Below are positions 1 to 38,555 of a stretch of DNA of 64,000 bases, piece after piece. Source of the DNA: Citrobacter youngae ATCC 29220 (lineage in GTDB: Bacteria > Pseudomonadota > Gammaproteobacteria > Enterobacterales > Enterobacteriaceae); the NCBI RefSeq assembly GCF_000155975.1, contig NZ_GG730300.1, positions 474,159 to 538,158 of the forward strand, in the 5' to 3' direction. The notes under the pieces are model-generated. The model saw only the letters and a program-made list of their open reading frames with translations. It had not been told where the DNA came from and made no database searches. The position numbers and the translations under genes were made by a program. Position 1 is the first letter of the stretch. Each line of letters begins with the position of its first letter.

Positions 1-1006
1 CTTCTTCCTCTGTTTCAGGTTTACGCCTGCGCGTTATCGGGCGTGGCTCGGGTTCTTCCGGTGGAACATAAGGCGGTGGTTCAGGTGTAGGGCCGAGCAC
101 GGCCTGACGTTTTTGCTCGGAGGGATCGACGTCCAGCAACAGCAGGTTGTAGTCAACGTTCAGCTCCTGACTCATCAGCCCCAGCAGCTCATCCTGTACC
201 CGTTCGATGGCGAAGTCTTCAGGCTGGTCGTTGAACAGTGACAGCGCGGAGGAAAAGAGATTATCAAAGGAACCGATATCTTCAGCCTCATGGCGCTGCC
301 AGAGATGTAATGATGCCGCCCGCAGTGACAGCAGCTTTTCCACCTGCGAGCGGCCCATCCCCGCGTACAGCACCTCGGGGATGCTGGGCAGTAGGTACTC
401 CAGCGCCTGTTCCATCCGGCTGATATGCGACTGATTAATGGGGTAGCCGTCGTTCTTCAGATGCTCCGCCAGCTCCCGTTGTGAAAGCTGGCACTTTTCC
501 ACCTGCTGGTACAGTTCCCGCGCCTTGTTGATCCCCAGCGCCCGCTCGATAAAGCTGAGTTTGCCATGCATATCGTTTTCCGCCAGATGGCCGATCAGGC
601 AGCGCAGTTCGCCCAACATGGGTTGATCGGATGTACCGGCCCACGGCTTGTACAGACACTGAATGCGCCAGAATCGTTCGTCATGCGTTTCGCGCCACAG
701 TTCGTTGAGGATCGACAGGCGGGTATTGCCGCCGTTGGCGATGATGAACCACTCCTGATCGGGACGACGGGTGATAGGCGGCGGCGTGTCCAGTCCACGA
801 CGACGGATCGATTCCTTGATGTCGTCATAGCTGGGGTTACGTATCAGTCGCGGATTGAGATCGTAAGGGCGAAGTTGTTCCAGCGTGACTATCATCGAGG
901 TTTCCATCAGCGGATCGGCAAATCGTTCATCGGGCGATCTTCCCCGATCAAAATTGCCCTGTAGCAGGCGGGACTGGAGTTCCGTCGAAGTCAGTTTGTT
1001 GTTCAT
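1..1006 (-). CDS. ParB-family partition protein of an integrative element (partial, runs off left edge)
   Basis: The ATG at 1006-1004 opens a frame that stays open to base 1, so only the N-terminal part (about 335 residues) is present. It reads MNNKLTSTELQSR, then a ParB/Spo0J-like part with 'LRPYDLNPRLIRNPSYDDIKES' split over residues 45-70 and 'NGGNTRLSIL' near residue 90, which are the usual ParB N-terminal boxes. A helix-turn-helix-like stretch follows (QRELAEHLKNDGY, INQSHISRM). The C-terminal part is rich in Pro, Glu and Arg. The start overlaps the dnaB stop (ATGA), so the two are translationally coupled. With dnaB and parA it forms the conserved partition/replication end of SPI-7/PAPI-1-type elements, where such a ParB is thought to help maintain the excised circle. 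Assignment rests on motifs and context. Confidence 0.85.
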   Translation of the reverse strand, partial: MNNKLTSTELQSRLLQGNFDRGRSPDERFADPLMETSMIVTLEQLRPYDLNPRLIRNPSYDDIKESIRRRGLDTPPPITRRPDQEWFIIANGGNTRLSILNELWRETHDERFWRIQCLYKPWAGTSDQPMLGELRCLIGHLAENDMHGKLSFIERALGINKARELYQQVEKCQLSQRELAEHLKNDGYPINQSHISRMEQALEYLLPSIPEVLYAGMGRSQVEKLLSLRAASLHLWQRHEAEDIGSFDNLFSSALSLFNDQPEDFAIERVQDELLGLMSQELNVDYNLLLLDVDPSEQKRQAVLGPTPEPPPYVPPEEPEPRPITRRRKPETEEE

Positions 1007-2358
1007 GACCCCACTCCCTGCTGGCTGAGCGATTCGAAGCGGGTTTGATCGCTGATAAATCGGGTTCGCACTGTGCCTATCGGGCCGTTGCGCTGTTTGC
1101 TGACAATGACTTCAGCGATACCTCGATCCAGCGTGTTTGGATCGTACAGTTCGTCGCGATAGAGGAATAAGATCACGTCGGCATCCTGCTCGATAGAGCC
1201 GGAATCGCGCAGATCGGCATTGCAGGGGCGTTTATTAAGGCGCGATTCCAGCGCCCGGTTAAGCTGCGACAGCGCCAGTACCGGGCAGTTGAGTTCCTTC
1301 GCCAGCGCTTTCAGCGATCGGGAGATCGTCGAGATCTCCTGATTGCGATTCTCCGCTCCGCCGCTGCGCATCAGTTGCAGGTAATCAACCACGATTAGCG
1401 AGGGAAGCCCGTACTGGCGCAGCGATCGTCTGGCCCGACTGCGTAGCAGGGATGGGGTGAGGATTCCGGAATCGTCGAGCAGCAGACGATCTTTCCACTC
1501 GTTCATCAGGATACTGGCGCTGAGGCCAATCTGCTGCCAGTCGTCATCACTCAGATCGCCGCTGCGTAGCCGGGTCTGCGAGACACGGCCAATCAGAGAA
1601 ACCAGCCGCAGCAGTAGCTGCTCTGCTGACATTTCCATGCTGTAGATTTGTACTGGCTGGGTGGGGAGGAGCATTAGCGCGTTGACGCACAGCGTCAGGG
1701 CGAAAGCGGTTTTACCTACGGAAGGGCGTGCGGCGGCGATAATCAGGTCGGCAGGCTGGAAGCCGCAGGTCAGGGCGTCGAGCTGTTCCAGCCCGGATGG
1801 CGTACCGCTGAGGCTACCGCGTTCGGCCTCATAGCGCTGAGCGATGCCTGCCAGCACGTTGTCAAAGCAAGCGTTGATGTCGGTCAGGCCGCCATCCTGA
1901 TGCGACCGCGCAATGGCAAACAGCTTTTGTTCGGCAAAGTTCAGTACATCGGCCACATTGCTGCGCGGCTGGCCTGCCATATCGCTCAGTTCATTGCCTA
2001 ATAACAGCAGCTGGCGCAGTTCGCCGTAGCTGGCAATATATTGTGCGTAGGGAATGATATTGGCGGCGCTGGGCGTGTTTTTTGACAACTCCGCCAGATA
2101 CGCGAAGCCGCCCACCTGTTCGAGCTGCTCTTGCTGTTCCAGCGATTCGCTCAGGGTGATCAGGTCGATGGGATTTCCCTGTTCGACCAGGGTTTGCATA
2201 TGGGAATAAATCGTCCGGTGCGCGGAGATGAAGAAGTCCTGCGCGGAAATCTGCGTGGTAACGTCATCCCAGCGATCGTTATCCAGCATCAGCCCGCCGA
2301 GCACCGATTGTTCCGCTTCGACGGAGTGGGGCGGTTGTGGCCGCTTGCGCTTACTCAT
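1003..2358 (-). CDS. dnaB: DnaB-type replicative helicase of the integrative element
   Basis: A 451-residue protein with the DnaB layout. The N-terminal domain begins PPHSVEAEQSVLGGLML (residues 9-25). The RecA-like core has Walker A ARPSVGKT at about 210-217, a Walker B VVDYLQLM and the SQLNR...R motif near the C terminus. The frame is open upstream to 2481, but the ATG at 2358 (MSKRKRPQPP) matches the family N terminus, and the upstream extension has no DnaB character. It begins 8 bp inside the end of the 2351-2725 gene, consistent with coupled translation. It is probably the element's own helicase, not the chromosomal dnaB, because it sits between parA and parB beside the attachment site. 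Confidence 0.9.
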   Translation of the reverse strand: MSKRKRPQPPHSVEAEQSVLGGLMLDNDRWDDVTTQISAQDFFISAHRTIYSHMQTLVEQGNPIDLITLSESLEQQEQLEQVGGFAYLAELSKNTPSAANIIPYAQYIASYGELRQLLLLGNELSDMAGQPRSNVADVLNFAEQKLFAIARSHQDGGLTDINACFDNVLAGIAQRYEAERGSLSGTPSGLEQLDALTCGFQPADLIIAAARPSVGKTAFALTLCVNALMLLPTQPVQIYSMEMSAEQLLLRLVSLIGRVSQTRLRSGDLSDDDWQQIGLSASILMNEWKDRLLLDDSGILTPSLLRSRARRSLRQYGLPSLIVVDYLQLMRSGGAENRNQEISTISRSLKALAKELNCPVLALSQLNRALESRLNKRPCNADLRDSGSIEQDADVILFLYRDELYDPNTLDRGIAEVIVSKQRNGPIGTVRTRFISDQTRFESLSQQGVGS

Positions 2359-2725
2359 CCCGATTACCCTCCTGACAGGCCAGAAAGGTTTCCCACAGCC
2401 GGGTCTGTTGATGCGGCGGTAGCAGTAAAAGCGGTAAATCACTGGAGTAGAGCGGCTTATTGTTGGACCAGCCGATTTCAAACAGCGGCCAGTCTCTGGG
2501 GGATGTCAGTGAACCGGAAGTATCCCGCAGTTCGTTCTCATCCTCTAGGTTGTAGCAGTCCACCTTTTCCGGTGGGATATGCCAGAGCAGCGACATTAAT
2601 ACCGGTAGCGTTTCCCGCGCTTCTTCACGATCGGCAGCTTCAAAGAATACGATCACTTCATCGTCTTTCTCAAAGGGATGTTGGGCGTAATAAGAGCAAA
2701 ATGCCCGCCAGATTTTCCGTTTCAT
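2351..2725 (-). CDS. Conserved small protein between parA and dnaB
   Basis: A 124-residue protein that I cannot assign to a named function. It overlaps the stop of parA by 4 bp (2722-2725) and the start of dnaB by 8 bp, so all three are probably read from one transcript. The sequence is acidic and rich in Trp, Leu and Pro, with no membrane segment, signal peptide or cysteine motif. A small gene in this position is common in SPI-7/PAPI-1-type partition clusters, which supports its being real. Confidence 0.7.
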   Translation of the reverse strand: MKRKIWRAFCSYYAQHPFEKDDEVIVFFEAADREEARETLPVLMSLLWHIPPEKVDCYNLEDENELRDTSGSLTSPRDWPLFEIGWSNNKPLYSSDLPLLLLPPHQQTRLWETFLACQEGNRDE

Positions 2726-3606
2726 GCGATGCCCTCCATCTGCTGATGGGGCAGGGCGAGAAACTGTGGGAACAGTTCTTCGGCCAGCATCCGCATAGTT
2801 TCAGCGGCGCAGGGCGTTGCCCGGCCTCTGGCGCGAGAGGTATCCAGACGATGCACCGGTATTCCCAGAGACGCCGCCCGACGATAAGCCACGCTGGCGT
2901 AAACCGGCGTCATCAGGATCTCGGTGGGCACCAGCAGCTCCTGTTCTTTCTGCTTATGCTGGAGAACCTGAAGCAGATTATGGTGAATTTCGCGAGCATC
3001 GTTAGTGTGGTCGAGCTTGTTGATCACCGCCTTCAGTGGCGGTAGTGGGATGCCGTAGCGGGTGAAGGGCTGGAGGTCACGGTACATTTGCAGCGTGCCG
3101 CGTAGAAACTCGCGTGCGGAGAGCATTTCCGGTAAAACAGGGGAGATTATGAGGTCGCTGGCTAACAGCACCATTTCCAGCGCGATGGTGCGTGCGCCAA
3201 TGGTGTCGATCAGAATGACGTCATAACCGGTTATCTGGCGTACCAGATGGCGCAGGCGGATCACACCGTCGGGCGCGGCCTGAAGCAGGCTCATCAGTTC
3301 ACCGCGCGGATCGTTGGAGATAATGATATCCAGTCCGGGAATGGTGGTGTGTGAGATGATGACTGCTGGATCCAGCTCGTTTTGCGCGATAAGCTCGTAA
3401 ACTCCGCCGGGGGCTTCGTTATCAAGAGGGTAATAGCTGCTGAGCGTCGGCTGGCGGATATCGGCGTCAATCATCAGGACTTTCAGCCCTTGATCGGCCA
3501 GGTAGCCGCCGAGGTTCGCCGTATCGGTGGTTTTCGCTACGCCACCTTTGGTGGAGAGGATAGCGGCAATTAGTGTAGGTAAATCAAGTGCATCTGCGTT
3601 TTTCAT
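2722..3606 (-). CDS. parA: ParA/Soj-family partition ATPase
   Basis: A 294-residue P-loop ATPase. The deviant Walker A box KGGVAKTT lies at residues 20-27. 'LKVLMIDADIRQPTLSSYY' follows at about 42-60, with the conserved Asp of the ParA family. Later 'YDVILIDTIG' is the Walker B region. It lacks an N-terminal helix-turn-helix, as in Soj-like ParA. It is the first gene of the leftward cluster parA, small gene, dnaB, parB. Its start lies only about 80 bp from the leuX-derived attachment site, the usual place for soj in PAPI-1/SPI-7-type elements, where it helps keep the excised form. Confidence 0.93.
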   Translation of the reverse strand: MKNADALDLPTLIAAILSTKGGVAKTTDTANLGGYLADQGLKVLMIDADIRQPTLSSYYPLDNEAPGGVYELIAQNELDPAVIISHTTIPGLDIIISNDPRGELMSLLQAAPDGVIRLRHLVRQITGYDVILIDTIGARTIALEMVLLASDLIISPVLPEMLSAREFLRGTLQMYRDLQPFTRYGIPLPPLKAVINKLDHTNDAREIHHNLLQVLQHKQKEQELLVPTEILMTPVYASVAYRRAASLGIPVHRLDTSRARGRATPCAAETMRMLAEELFPQFLALPHQQMEGIA

Positions 3607-3687
3607 AACCAGTGCCTTTTTCGTTGTCTGAAAAGGACTTCACTGTAAAAACGCTGATTTGTTAGTAGGTTAAGTTACCCGATCGCT

Positions 3688-3733
3688 TTGATTCAAAATC
3701 AACCGTAGAAATACGTGCCGGTTCGAGTCCGGC
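3688..3733. repeat. attR-like site: 3' part of tRNA-Leu (leuX)
   Basis: These 46 bases match the anticodon-stem-to-T-arm part of enterobacterial leuX, including the CAA anticodon context (TTGATTCAAAATCAACC) and the T-loop GGTTCGAGTCCGGC. The match stops before the acceptor stem: after CCGGC the sequence runs ACAGAAAACG, not CTTCGGCACCA. The tRNA 5' half is absent, so this is not a working tRNA gene. It is the direct-repeat copy left by site-specific integration. The intact leuX and the integrase gene are expected to the left of this window. Confidence 0.85.
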
Positions 3734-4282: not shown

Positions 4283-4593
4283 GCTTAGCATGATTTTTCA
4301 AATAAGTCAATGTGTTAGTAATAATATCCTAATAAATTCTTGCTTCTTTATCCATAAATATTTTCATATCGCCCTCTAAATAATGTCCTGCCTGTGCATT
4401 CCTCATATAGCATTGATTTAAGTTGAAAATTATCTGAACCAATACTGTTTTTGTGAAAAAACTTTTTAACGAAATATGATGGCCTTGATAGACTACATTT
4501 TGCTGACGTAAGCACCCTTGAAATCACCATGGCATAAGGGCTATAATGATTTCACATGGTCTGTTATGTGTCACTTAAGGTTAAGGAGTGCGT

Positions 4594-5214
4594 ATGTCTG
4601 TTATAGCACTGGTCCGTCAGCGGATTAACCGCATGAGACGAGGTATACCGTTTTCTATCAGTGGGTTCTACCCGCTGGGAAGTCGCGCATCTGTACAGCA
4701 GGCTATGAGTCGTCTGGCAAAAGAAGGCATGATTGTTCGCGTAGATCGAGGATTTTATGCGCGACCGAAACCACTCAAGAATATTCCTTCCATCAAGATC
4801 GTAACCAGTGCTGAAAAGGTAGTAGCTGCATGGGCTAAAGAGCGTGGTTATAAAATTACCATCCAGGGGCTGGAGGCTGCTTATCGGCTGGGTATGCAGA
4901 CGCAAGCTCCGGTTAAGCGTATTTACTGGTCGAATGGTCCAACCAGAGAGTTTAAGGTTGGCAACGAGACTGTGATTGTTCAGCACAAGTCAGAAAGTAA
5001 ACTGAAGTGGCTGAATCGGCCTGAAGGGGAGTTGTTACGTGGGTTGCTGAGCCTGAGTGGAAAGTATGCCCGTCTGGAAGCAATCAAAAATGCTTTTAAC
5101 CGTCTTAATATCTCTTCCCGGGAAGCTCGCTCAGCCATTGCTAAGAAATTAGTGAGTGAACCAGCTCTTCAGGGATGGCGTACTCAGCTTGAACTCTTTC
5201 GGCAGGCTATCTGA
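4594..5214 (+). CDS. abiEi: AbiEi-type antitoxin/transcription regulator (DUF6088-like)
   Basis: About 206 residues. A strong Shine-Dalgarno AAGGAG at 4583-4588 lies 5 bases before the ATG at 4594. An in-frame GTG at 4588 overlaps that site and is less likely to be used. The N terminus is a winged helix-turn-helix ('SRASVQQAMSRLAKEGMIVRVDRGFYARP' at about 27-55 in split form), typical of AbiEi antitoxins that bind their own promoter. A DUF6088-like body follows. It ends in TGATG, overlapping the toxin start by one base. In the type IV AbiE system this protein represses the operon and counters the nucleotidyltransferase toxin. Confidence 0.85.
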   Translation: MSVIALVRQRINRMRRGIPFSISGFYPLGSRASVQQAMSRLAKEGMIVRVDRGFYARPKPLKNIPSIKIVTSAEKVVAAWAKERGYKITIQGLEAAYRLGMQTQAPVKRIYWSNGPTREFKVGNETVIVQHKSESKLKWLNRPEGELLRGLLSLSGKYARLEAIKNAFNRLNISSREARSAIAKKLVSEPALQGWRTQLELFRQAI

Positions 5215-6275
5215 TGAGCAGCATCTTTGAACTCTATAAAACTGAAGAAGGGCGGGGCCAACTTCAGGAAATATTCAGTTATGCTGCACAGAAGCACCCA
5301 TTGAGTCTGGGGGCGAGCTTTCTGGAAAAGGATCTCTGGGTTACAGAGATCCTACGTCTTCTGTTTGATGAAGGTTTTCTTCATCCATACACAGTCGCTT
5401 TTAAAGGTGGAACCTCATTAAGCAAGTGCTGGAATGTGATTGAGCGCTTTTCTGAAGATATCGATTTATCGATTCATTGGGCGGAACTTGCTGGTCATTC
5501 AGAAGAACAGGAACAAGAAGCCTGGAAAGCAAGTACCCGTAGTCGAAGTCAGAATCAGCGCTTTCGTGAACAACAGCAAACAAGACTCGAAGAATGGACC
5601 GCAGAGTTAGTGGAAAAACTTAATCAGCGTTTCCAGTCTTATGGTATTTCCGGCCTGGAGGCTCGTTTAGAGGCGGAAAGTAGGGGAGAAAAGGTCGATA
5701 TATTCTTTCCTCGTGTTCACGCTGATTCTGCGGCTTACCAGCGAGATCATATCTTATTGGAGTTCGGTGGTCGTAACCGAGGGAAACCGACGGATACAAT
5801 AACGGTAAGCAGTTATTTATCCGGAATAAAAGAGCTGGGTGAACTGGAGTTGCCATCTGCAACAGTCCAGGCTTATAACCCTGGTTATATTCTCTGGGAA
5901 AAAATTACCGCACTGCATCAGTTTTGTACCCAGGAAAAAGAGCTAAATGCAGAACGTCTATCCCGTCACTGGTACGATGTTGATTGCCTGTTACAGCATC
6001 AGTTTGCCGATCTTTATGATACAAAAGAAGCAATGCATAACGTGATTGAAATGAAGCAGCAGCGCTGGACCTTTCCTGGTGTGGATTATACGTTGGTTGC
6101 TAAAGGTGAGTTACGTCTGGTCCCTGAAGATGCTGGGCGCCTTGCTGCTATCGCTGAAGATCATCGTATTGCAATTGAGGGTGGCATGTTTTTTAAGGAG
6201 CCTGACGGCTTTGATAAAATTATTGAACGTCTCCAACAAGTTCAGGATGAATTTAATTGTGCTATGAAAAGATAA
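5214..6275 (+). CDS. abiEii: AbiEii-type nucleotidyltransferase toxin
   Basis: A 353-residue nucleotidyltransferase-fold protein. Visible motifs are EKDLW (38-42), GGTSLSK (65-71) and SEDIDL (80-85), the last with the two metal-binding Asp residues. Together they define the AbiEii/AbiGii toxin family, which pairs with AbiEi in abortive infection against phage and in plasmid or island stability. The start codon overlaps the antitoxin stop by one base. The module lies just outside the element's attachment site, so it may be a separate arrival or part of a composite island. No frame damage is seen. Confidence 0.9.
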   Translation: MSSIFELYKTEEGRGQLQEIFSYAAQKHPLSLGASFLEKDLWVTEILRLLFDEGFLHPYTVAFKGGTSLSKCWNVIERFSEDIDLSIHWAELAGHSEEQEQEAWKASTRSRSQNQRFREQQQTRLEEWTAELVEKLNQRFQSYGISGLEARLEAESRGEKVDIFFPRVHADSAAYQRDHILLEFGGRNRGKPTDTITVSSYLSGIKELGELELPSATVQAYNPGYILWEKITALHQFCTQEKELNAERLSRHWYDVDCLLQHQFADLYDTKEAMHNVIEMKQQRWTFPGVDYTLVAKGELRLVPEDAGRLAAIAEDHRIAIEGGMFFKEPDGFDKIIERLQQVQDEFNCAMKR

Positions 6276-6431: not shown

Positions 6432-7268
6432 TCACCCTCGAAACACCTCTTTCCTGTGCCACTCCACAAACCCTTCTTTTGGATAATTCCCGCGCATCAT
6501 CGGCAGCGCTATCGATTTACCGTCGAAATCCCAGAACAGTATGCCCACCATGCCGCTGCCATTTACTGCGGGTGACACCAGAACTCGCATACTCTCATCA
6601 AGCCCAATCGAACCTTTATCAAAGGCTTTATGGTGGCGCCAGGCCGTTTGAAATCTCGCAGGGCCCGCCGTGCTGTTTCCATTCGATATGGGCGGCTTCC
6701 AGGGCAACCGAAGCACTGTCGTGGCGCATTCATAGTTATAGGCACGCAGAACCTGCTGGCGGAACAACGGGTCCCGCTGTTTACGGATTTGCAGGATATC
6801 AAATCCCAATTCATCGGCGATCTCTTCCTGAATGCTTTCGGTGAAGTGCGCTTCGAGGATTTGCTGGGCCAGGGCGTTGATTAGGTTGTTGCTCTTTTTC
6901 AGCAGGACTAAATGTTGTGCATCAAAGCCTCCGGCAACGTTATGCGTCACCAGTTCTCCGGCAGGAGGCTGTTTGCTTGAACAATGCTCGGCGTTTTGTA
7001 GCTCCCAGAACCCATCTCCCTGTAAGCGCCAGAATGGCATATCCGGGCGGTACTGCGCGCGCAGTGGTCCAAACCGCTCCAGCAGGCTATGCAACGGGTC
7101 GCGAACTTCCGAACCGTAGTCAAACAGGCGACCGTGACCCTGCTGATAACCCGCCAGCACATAAAGCAGCAGCAGAGGCTTGTGCGGCGCGCGCTGCTCG
7201 CCTTTACGCCAGATGGTGATGTCGGCAATTGCCTGTTGCAGGTTTTTACTGGAACTCATTGATTTCAT
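6432..7268 (-). pseudogene. Phosphorothioated-DNA-binding HNH restriction endonuclease with destroyed HNH core
   Basis: A continuous 278-residue frame. The N-terminal part (ITIWRKGEQRAPHKPLLLLY...) matches the sulfur-binding domain of ScoMcrA/SprMcrA-like enzymes that cut phosphorothioate-modified DNA. The C-terminal end (HHKAFDKGSIGL...FVEWHRKEVFRG) also matches. Between YNYECA and HHKAFDK the frame encodes unrelated residues. Reading the next frame restores the HNH signature (DSASVALEAAHIEW, then GGP and SNGLA). So there are two deletions: one just after the first zinc cysteine (1 mod 3) and one before HHK (2 mod 3). Together they restore the frame but remove the second CxxC cysteine and the LC.L cysteine and shift the catalytic His out of frame. 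With about 11 codons added back the length would match the family (about 290). The start is ATG 7268 or ATG 7259. Confidence 0.75.
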
Positions 7269-7372
7269 TACCAGGTAAATAATTGCGATGATGCTCGCAA
7301 AATATCACCTGATCACCAGGTGTGAGGCCGATACACTATCGACGTCATTTTATTGCTTACCTGTAAATGCTC

Positions 7373-38139: not shown

Positions 38140-38484
38140 TTATTTCTGTCTGCGCGGCTTCGCCGAAATTACCTCGATAAACTCCTGCACCTGCTGCTGC
38201 TTACGCGCGGACAGCTTGCATACCCGACGCAGCGACTGCAATAACGCCGGCTCTTCTGGTTCCGGCAGCTTTGTCGTCAGCACAATGCAGCCAGGCATCA
38301 CTCTGACATCGAATTTGCAGCCAGTGGTAAAACCGGCGGCTTCCAGCCACTGGCCTTTCATAATAATTGCCGGAACATGCGTGTAATCCGGATAACGACT
38401 CGCATAAGTGACGGTACCCAGACGATTATTTGCCGGGGAGACTTCTGGATCGGTGAATTCTGCAATAGAATGCGGGGTAGTCAT
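38140..38484 (-). CDS. symE: SymE-family toxin
   Basis: 114 residues. The SpoVT/AbrB-like SymE fold shows in [14 protein letters not shown] and [34 protein letters not shown] (read in parts). In E. coli SymE is an SOS-induced protein that condenses nucleoids or cuts RNA and is held down by the antisense RNA SymR. Its place beside the hsd genes is the same here. A LexA-like box lies upstream and a SymR match overlaps the 5' end. Confidence 0.93.
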
Positions 38485-38555
38485 GGTCTCTATTCCTATT
38501 CCAATAGTGATTGTGATTAGCGAGGCGCTCGTGTTGCAGCACGGGCGTCTTGCGA
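38479..38555 (+). ncRNA. symR: SymR antisense RNA
   Basis: Opposite strand to the symE leader and first codons. The sequence starts AGTCAT and shares with E. coli SymR the block ATAGTGATTGTGATTAGCGA and a GC-rich 3' hairpin (GCTCGTG/GCACGGGC near 38526-38546). A -10 box TAGAAT at 38466-38471 fits the 5' end. It would block SymE translation by pairing. Ends are estimated from the E. coli RNA of 77 nt. Confidence 0.75.

Follow-up and report, generated by a model that had tools for sequence, protein, structure and literature searches.

Is a restriction gene with an open frame and no nuclease core kept by selection as a non-cutting reader of phosphorothioate (PT) DNA, or is it decaying with its frame preserved by chance? 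The question is raised by a gene in a stretch of 64,000 nucleotides from Citrobacter youngae ATCC 29220, which was analysed at its full length and is called the window here. An open ORF of 278 aa runs from 7268 to 6432 on the minus strand (Table 1), which bears out the original prediction of a frame open across 278 codons, made with no strand given. The family was also named correctly at the outset: the fold of a sulfur-binding domain (SBD) is matched, and the window protein scores 324.4 bits against the NCBIfam model NF045808 (PT-DNA_restrict; curated cut-off 180) despite its lost active site, the intact ortholog reaching 450.6 bits. The gene is called EcoWI-like through this family model, the EcoWI sequence itself lying outside the comparison. 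We consider it very probable that a gene for an EcoWI-like PT-dependent endonuclease of the SBD-HNH type, at a leuX island hot spot in Citrobacter, was recently inactivated here and is now a pseudogene. Because of three small deletions it no longer encodes the HNH active site, half of the zinc site or four SBD residues; the product, if made, should be unable to cut DNA and would probably bind PT-DNA poorly or with the wrong specificity, and the strain would have lost the restriction of PT-marked DNA by this gene. The gene is a decayed member of an already characterised restriction family, real but ordinary, and taken alone a decayed single gene matters little.

Table 1. Features of the window around the degenerate restriction gene.
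Feature	Position	Strand	Basis
DnaB-like (by translation reading) and ParA-like genes, end of the putative element	1003..3606	-	ORFs, domain matches
Second leuX-derived copy, 66.6 kb from leuX; adjoins parA-dnaB genes	3687..3721	+	sequence match
AbiEi/AbiEii module between the two attachment copies	4588..6275	+	domain matches
leuX 3'-end attachment-site core, few bases past the stop codon	6408..6423	-	sequence GCGAAGGCCGGACTCG = leuX 3' end
Degenerate EcoWI-like SBD-HNH phosphorothioate-dependent endonuclease gene, 278 codons	6432..7268	-	ORF, codon alignment, NF045808
C-terminal HNH-domain remnant from the retained HH, without confident predicted fold	6435..6635	-	ORF, PADLOC, AlphaFold
11-bp deletion junction (6635|6636); translation back in ancestral frame	6635..6636	-	codon alignment
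94-nt block in wrong frame; HNH core in ancestral frame	6636..6729	-	codon alignment
22-bp deletion junction (6729|6730) and sole remaining ATGCGCCA repeat copy (6722-6729)	6722..6730	-	codon alignment
Sulfur-binding domain, residues 1-163; mostly confident predicted fold	6780..7268	-	AlphaFold, Foldseek
12-bp in-frame deletion junction (6977|6978); four residues gone at the loop equivalent to ScoMcrA S187-R191	6977..6978	-	codon and profile alignments
Sulfur pocket M77-P78 (ScoMcrA Y164/P165), intact	7035..7040	-	alignments; residue roles PMC6224610
Sulfur pocket H29-K30 (ScoMcrA H116/R117), intact	7179..7184	-	alignments; residue roles PMC6224610

Three deletions and the loss of the nuclease

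The genome of the window (G000; 10 contigs, 100% complete) holds this gene as the single match of a genome search, with no second copy, intact or otherwise. Eight of 16 other Citrobacter genomes, sampled at one per species, carry the gene, seven in intact form and one, Citrobacter sp. wls619 (G009; locus L007 = L050), broken by a TAG inside the SBD. The codon alignment of the window gene with ten relatives (these eight carriers and two more distant sequences) revealed three deletions of 12, 22 and 11 bp that are private to the window, being absent from 8/8 other Citrobacter carriers and from both outgroups; tested as a pseudogene, the gene thus has lesions that orthologs at the same locus do not share. 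Two cancelling losses of about 22 and 11 bases had been proposed, and the alignment matches them exactly: together they amount to 33 bp, so that the frame is regained and the 94 nt (31 codons) between them are misread, and the HNH segment noticed beforehand in the next frame is real and represents the ancestral frame between the two deletions. The survey of other Citrobacter suggested with that prediction found the same deletions in none of the 8 carriers among the 16 genomes, leaving them private to the window's genome in this sample. A search for copies with the same deletions gave no near match in E. coli genomes and plasmids, among which records very near the window's genome may be absent, and the exact 22-bp deletion junction was not found in viral contigs.

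Two ATGCGCCA repeats bound the 22-bp loss exactly, so that its junction shows 8 bp of homology. In the intact C. braakii gene, repeat pairs of this kind spaced 4-40 bp apart number only two. The junction homology of the 12-bp and 11-bp deletions is 1 bp each. Judged by its junction, the 22-bp loss is a typical slippage or misalignment deletion. Two nearby frameshifts that cancel are also what an assembly or sequencing error might leave behind, a reading that we hold to be highly improbable, as the losses of 22, 11 and 12 bp are unlike homopolymer errors, the position of one of them at 8-bp direct repeats speaks against faulty assembly, alignment is normal over the remainder of the gene and the genome is complete in few contigs.

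In the numbering of the intact C. braakii ortholog (L002/L047), our reference for residues, C185, C188, C224 and H227 are taken as zinc ligands, and H205, N219 and H228 as the HNH triad; these assignments were drawn from the CxxC/CxxH motif of PMC7461809, the ScoMcrA residues of PMC6224610 and our own alignment. All seven positions are invariant in 38/38 chosen intact homologs. In the window protein the CxxC/CxxH site is incomplete, since C188 and C224 (two of the four ligands) are deleted, one by each frameshifting deletion, just as the loss of zinc-binding cysteines had been foreseen; the catalytic triad is likewise incomplete, two of its three residues (H205 and N219) being lost through the frameshift. 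C185, H227 and H228 are kept, the first of them, the first Cys of CxxC, because the repeat rebuilds its codon. No HNH match to the window protein was found in Pfam; the intact C. braakii protein matches Pfam HNH_2 at 41.1 bits, and the PADLOC HNH models still match the C-terminal remnant of the window protein. A practical warning follows, in that score-based annotation could count a protein whose active site is lost as active because it passes the curated NCBI cut-off.

Predicted structures were built on alignments of 38 and 52 rows, for which we selected sequences manually among the 67 loci that have a homologous ORF, passing over same-genome duplicates, broken genes and some of the close copies; L077 (a 38% partial match) had fallen below the threshold for the 67-locus set. 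The AlphaFold model of the window protein (52-row family alignment) is mostly confident for residues 4-163, and all of residues 164-278 have a pLDDT <50; in the model of the intact ortholog (38 rows) the C-terminal half lies mostly at pLDDT 50-85. Foldseek gave 14 matches at E<=0.001 for the window model, to SBDs or ScoMcrA only. The C-terminal domain of the intact ortholog resembles the HNH modification-dependent nucleases TagI and VcaM4I, weakly by Foldseek (VcaM4I E=0.004, TagI E=0.021) and, for TagI, better by sequence profile (E=3e-6) and VIA (Z 8.8), whereas both are absent among the best 50 of 104 matches of the window model. From the open frame one might suppose that the protein is a functional variant in its own right, with a novel middle section; however, the 31 codons there correspond to the HNH core of close relatives read out of frame, and no confident fold is predicted for the region, and we find this barely credible. 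With the EcoWI-like enzymes the window protein shares the architecture of an SBD followed by an HNH domain (PMC7461809) and a conserved sulfur pocket (HK and MP), but its HNH triad, zinc site and part of its base-reading loop are damaged, and an active nuclease is not expected.

The sulfur-binding domain and selection

The SBD had been described as untouched, which holds for the sulfur pocket and fails for the domain as a whole, as the 12-bp in-frame deletion, unnoticed until now, lies inside it. The window model has the same SBD fold as ScoMcrA (PDB 5ZMM/5ZMN/5ZMO) and SprMcrA (7CC9/7CCD/7CCJ), and the model of the intact ortholog matches these SBDs with Z 20.3 (5zmo) and Z 17.5 (7ccd); ScoMcrA additionally has an SRA domain (PMC6224610). 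Identity to the two SBDs is ~20%, and unlike them the window protein lacks four residues at the S187-R191 loop equivalent. In ScoMcrA this loop (S187-R-G-R-R191) enters the major groove and contacts bases (PMC6224610). The profile alignment to ScoMcrA is gapless across the loop, and by our own count on it the 12-bp deletion maps to the equivalents of ScoMcrA residues 185-188; between C96 and the next Pro (P105) there are 4 residues in the window versus 7-8 in the 38 chosen homologs. Since the base-reading loop is shortened, sequence-specific reading of PT-DNA by the window protein is probably impaired.

It could be argued that after the loss of the HNH domain selection kept the SBD as a non-cutting binder of PT-DNA, acting as a silencer or decoy, and the ORF is indeed open, the sulfur pocket intact, the SBD predicted to fold and codons 1-184 at an omega <1 (p=0.028). 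Nevertheless, we regard such a nuclease-dead reader, one of the two outcomes originally envisaged, as very unlikely: the base-reading loop lacks four residues, codons 1-100 evolve at an omega of 0.55, the genome has no DndC or DndD over the cut-off and so gives no hint that the strain makes a PT mark for it to read, none of the homologs inspected belongs to a stable SBD-only lineage, and restoration of the frame is irrelevant to an SBD that lies upstream of it. It is the loss in the loop and the raised dN/dS on the window branch that leave the idea poorly supported, the dN/dS being weaker evidence than the loop deletion.

The branch codon model behind these values covers nine sequences and was run with our own Python script on a fixed tree, weakly supported (bootstrap 56-99), with four codon sets tried; L009 was excluded from tree and model because its C-terminus is divergent, perhaps recombinant, and L020 was kept in the tree and excluded from the model because it is too distant. 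Over the whole gene, omega is 0.314 on the window branch versus 0.094 elsewhere, with a p=0.011 that is uncorrected over nine tips and fails Bonferroni, and the value on the window branch is also below 1 (p=0.0095). The window alone among the nine tips has a significantly raised omega; that of L019 is significantly lower. The omega of 0.55 for codons 1-100 is above background (LRT 4.3) and indistinguishable from 1 (LRT 0.56), that of codons 1-184 is 0.32 (p=0.061 versus background, p=0.028 versus 1), and after the second deletion the difference in omega is non-significant (LRT 0.9). Tip-specific changes comprise 11 replacement and 9 silent ones in the window (two and two of them within the frameshifted block) and 27 and 51 in the seven other Citrobacter tips pooled, a comparison that is suggestive only. 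Of ten residues specific to the window, five occur in none of the 38 homologs, a share that does not clearly exceed that of the other tips, some of which sit in that alignment and are favoured by it.

An omega <1, with most of the branch constrained, speaks against decay, as do the intact sulfur pocket, a nearly unchanged start region and the lack of any gained stop codon; the omega is what a recent inactivation would give, but weak selection that still continues would give it too. A branch that was first constrained and lately relaxed would also account for it: by our own arithmetic, about a quarter of the branch at an omega of 1 gives 0.31. Nor does the cancellation of the two frameshifts call for selection, since the shifted frame is naturally open: it runs open for 58 codons in 9/10 relatives and is stop-free in the tenth, the second deletion comes only 31 codons on, and between the deletion sites it is stop-free in 10/10 relatives. 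Any further small indel has about a one-in-three chance of restoring the frame, so that the cancellation can be put down to coincidence. Moreover, the SBD lies upstream of both frameshifts and, if selected, would not need the frame to be restored; with the shifted frame open besides, the in-frame cancellation is uninformative about the SBD. Hence, of the two outcomes first proposed, decay that happens to keep the frame is the one we favour. A non-cutting PT-DNA binder with an altered sequence preference, in which the pocket is kept, the loop shortened and the nuclease gone, is in our estimation very improbable; if true, it would be a silencer or decoy against sulfur-marked DNA, e.g., of dnd islands targeting leuX.

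The leuX site, neighbouring genes and the PT mark

The core of the leuX (tRNA-Leu CAA) 3' end follows the stop codon within ~8 bp in 11/31 loci (L047-L050, L052-L055, L059, L063 and L072), from Citrobacter, Enterobacter, Silvania and Huaxiibacter, and the EcoWI-like gene thus seems to be a regular occupant of the end of leuX islands. In the window's genome leuX lies 69 kb from the gene, and in 7/7 carriers with both on one contig (of nine carriers) the distance is 8-76 kb; in G002 and G011 the two are split between contigs. The second leuX-derived copy may mark the distal boundary of an integrated element. Among 17 Citrobacter genomes, a near full-length match to the parA-dnaB end is present only in G000 and G009, where G009:C70:271709-274427 corresponds to window 1003-3721.

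The gene is broken, by different lesions, in 2/2 carriers with the parA-dnaB end versus 0/7 others (Fisher p=0.028, post hoc). Possibly, the arrival of the leuX element or of a past dnd island selected for the loss of PT restriction, which would overlap with decay as its cause. In line with this, both carriers of parA-dnaB among the nine Citrobacter carriers are broken, dnd islands have been described at leuX (PMC2663466), dndC/D lie ~6-9 kb from leuX in G006, and the dnd-positive G153 has a broken homolog ~3 kb away. However, the association is post hoc and concerns two cases whose locus histories may not be independent, given their shared upstream similarity and common lack of a second HNH gene, and G158 carries dnd together with a full-length homolog; we therefore think such favoured inactivation unlikely.

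The two loci in question, L050 and the window, share a short extra upstream similarity, and neither has the second HNH gene of L048, L049 and L072. In L049 (2772-3869) a SymE-like gene and the second HNH gene stand between tpl and the restriction gene; the SymE-like gene is kept by L050 and L047, which have no second HNH gene, and the window has neither there, a 61%-identical SymE-like match lying elsewhere in it at 38158-38487. A further SBD-HNH gene, divergent and with an HNH motif (L010), lies ~5 kb from leuX in G009; no such second gene was found in the window's genome. Upstream of the start (window 7269-7330, minus strand), ~55 bp are conserved, and this holds even for L051, in which the flank beyond them is unrelated. 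They contain nested inverted repeats, TTGCGA...TCGCAA inside ATCAGGT...ACCTGAT, with one outer half-site changed in the window, and form a possible operator.

Self-tolerance towards an own dnd system was considered as a cause of the loss and rejected, as the window's genome has no DndC or DndD above the cut-off: DndC gave no match at E<=0.001, and DndD gave a weak one of 25 bits against a cut-off of 246, similar to weak matches in 15/16 other genomes. G006 is the one Citrobacter with DndC and DndD over the cut-off, and it has no EcoWI-like gene. Among 295 family-level genomes, DndC exceeds the cut-off in 18, and the window protein finds a match, in many cases a partial one, in 59; of the 18, G158 has a full-length homolog, G153 a broken one and G149 a short weak match only, which is too few to test exclusion. 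The broken SBD-HNH homolog of G153 (L097, G153:C4:284000-292000) lies ~3 kb from dndC. In Salmonella and in E. coli B7A, dnd islands, which produce PT-DNA, use leuX (PMC2663466). This setting is of greater weight than the decay of the gene itself: as the site is shared, strain-level data could test whether PT readers and writers compete for one integration site, and such a rivalry at leuX is the lead worth following.

Breakage across the family

Decay in the SBD-HNH family is not rare. The HNH motif is kept in 65/67 loci with a homologous ORF, a set that includes several duplicates, the same genome having been reached in two ways; it is missing from L073 and L076. At L007/L050, L059 and L074 the gene is split by stops or a frameshift. 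The homologs inspected include no stable SBD-only lineage, and the SBD-only fragments look broken: among the candidates, L092 and L096 proved to be divergent SBD-HNH proteins and L093 and L095 fragments, and L094 matches only from residue 97 on and is N-terminally truncated or broken. In the titles and abstract openings of the literature searched we found no report of a natural inactive SBD-HNH gene; in PMC7461809, <3.6% of PT-dependent enzymes are placed near dnd clusters, and inactive enzymes are raised there as one explanation.

Two further arrangements were seen. In Enterobacter sp. JUb54 (L073, 3962-5236) an unrelated sequence stands in place of the HNH half; its match to Rep (REP_ORF2-G2P) is below threshold. 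L090 and L091, two more of the SBD-only candidates, proved to be SBD-X-HNH fusions, in which a lengthened linker connects the SBD to a more distantly related HNH-like C-terminus within a single frame of ~450 codons.
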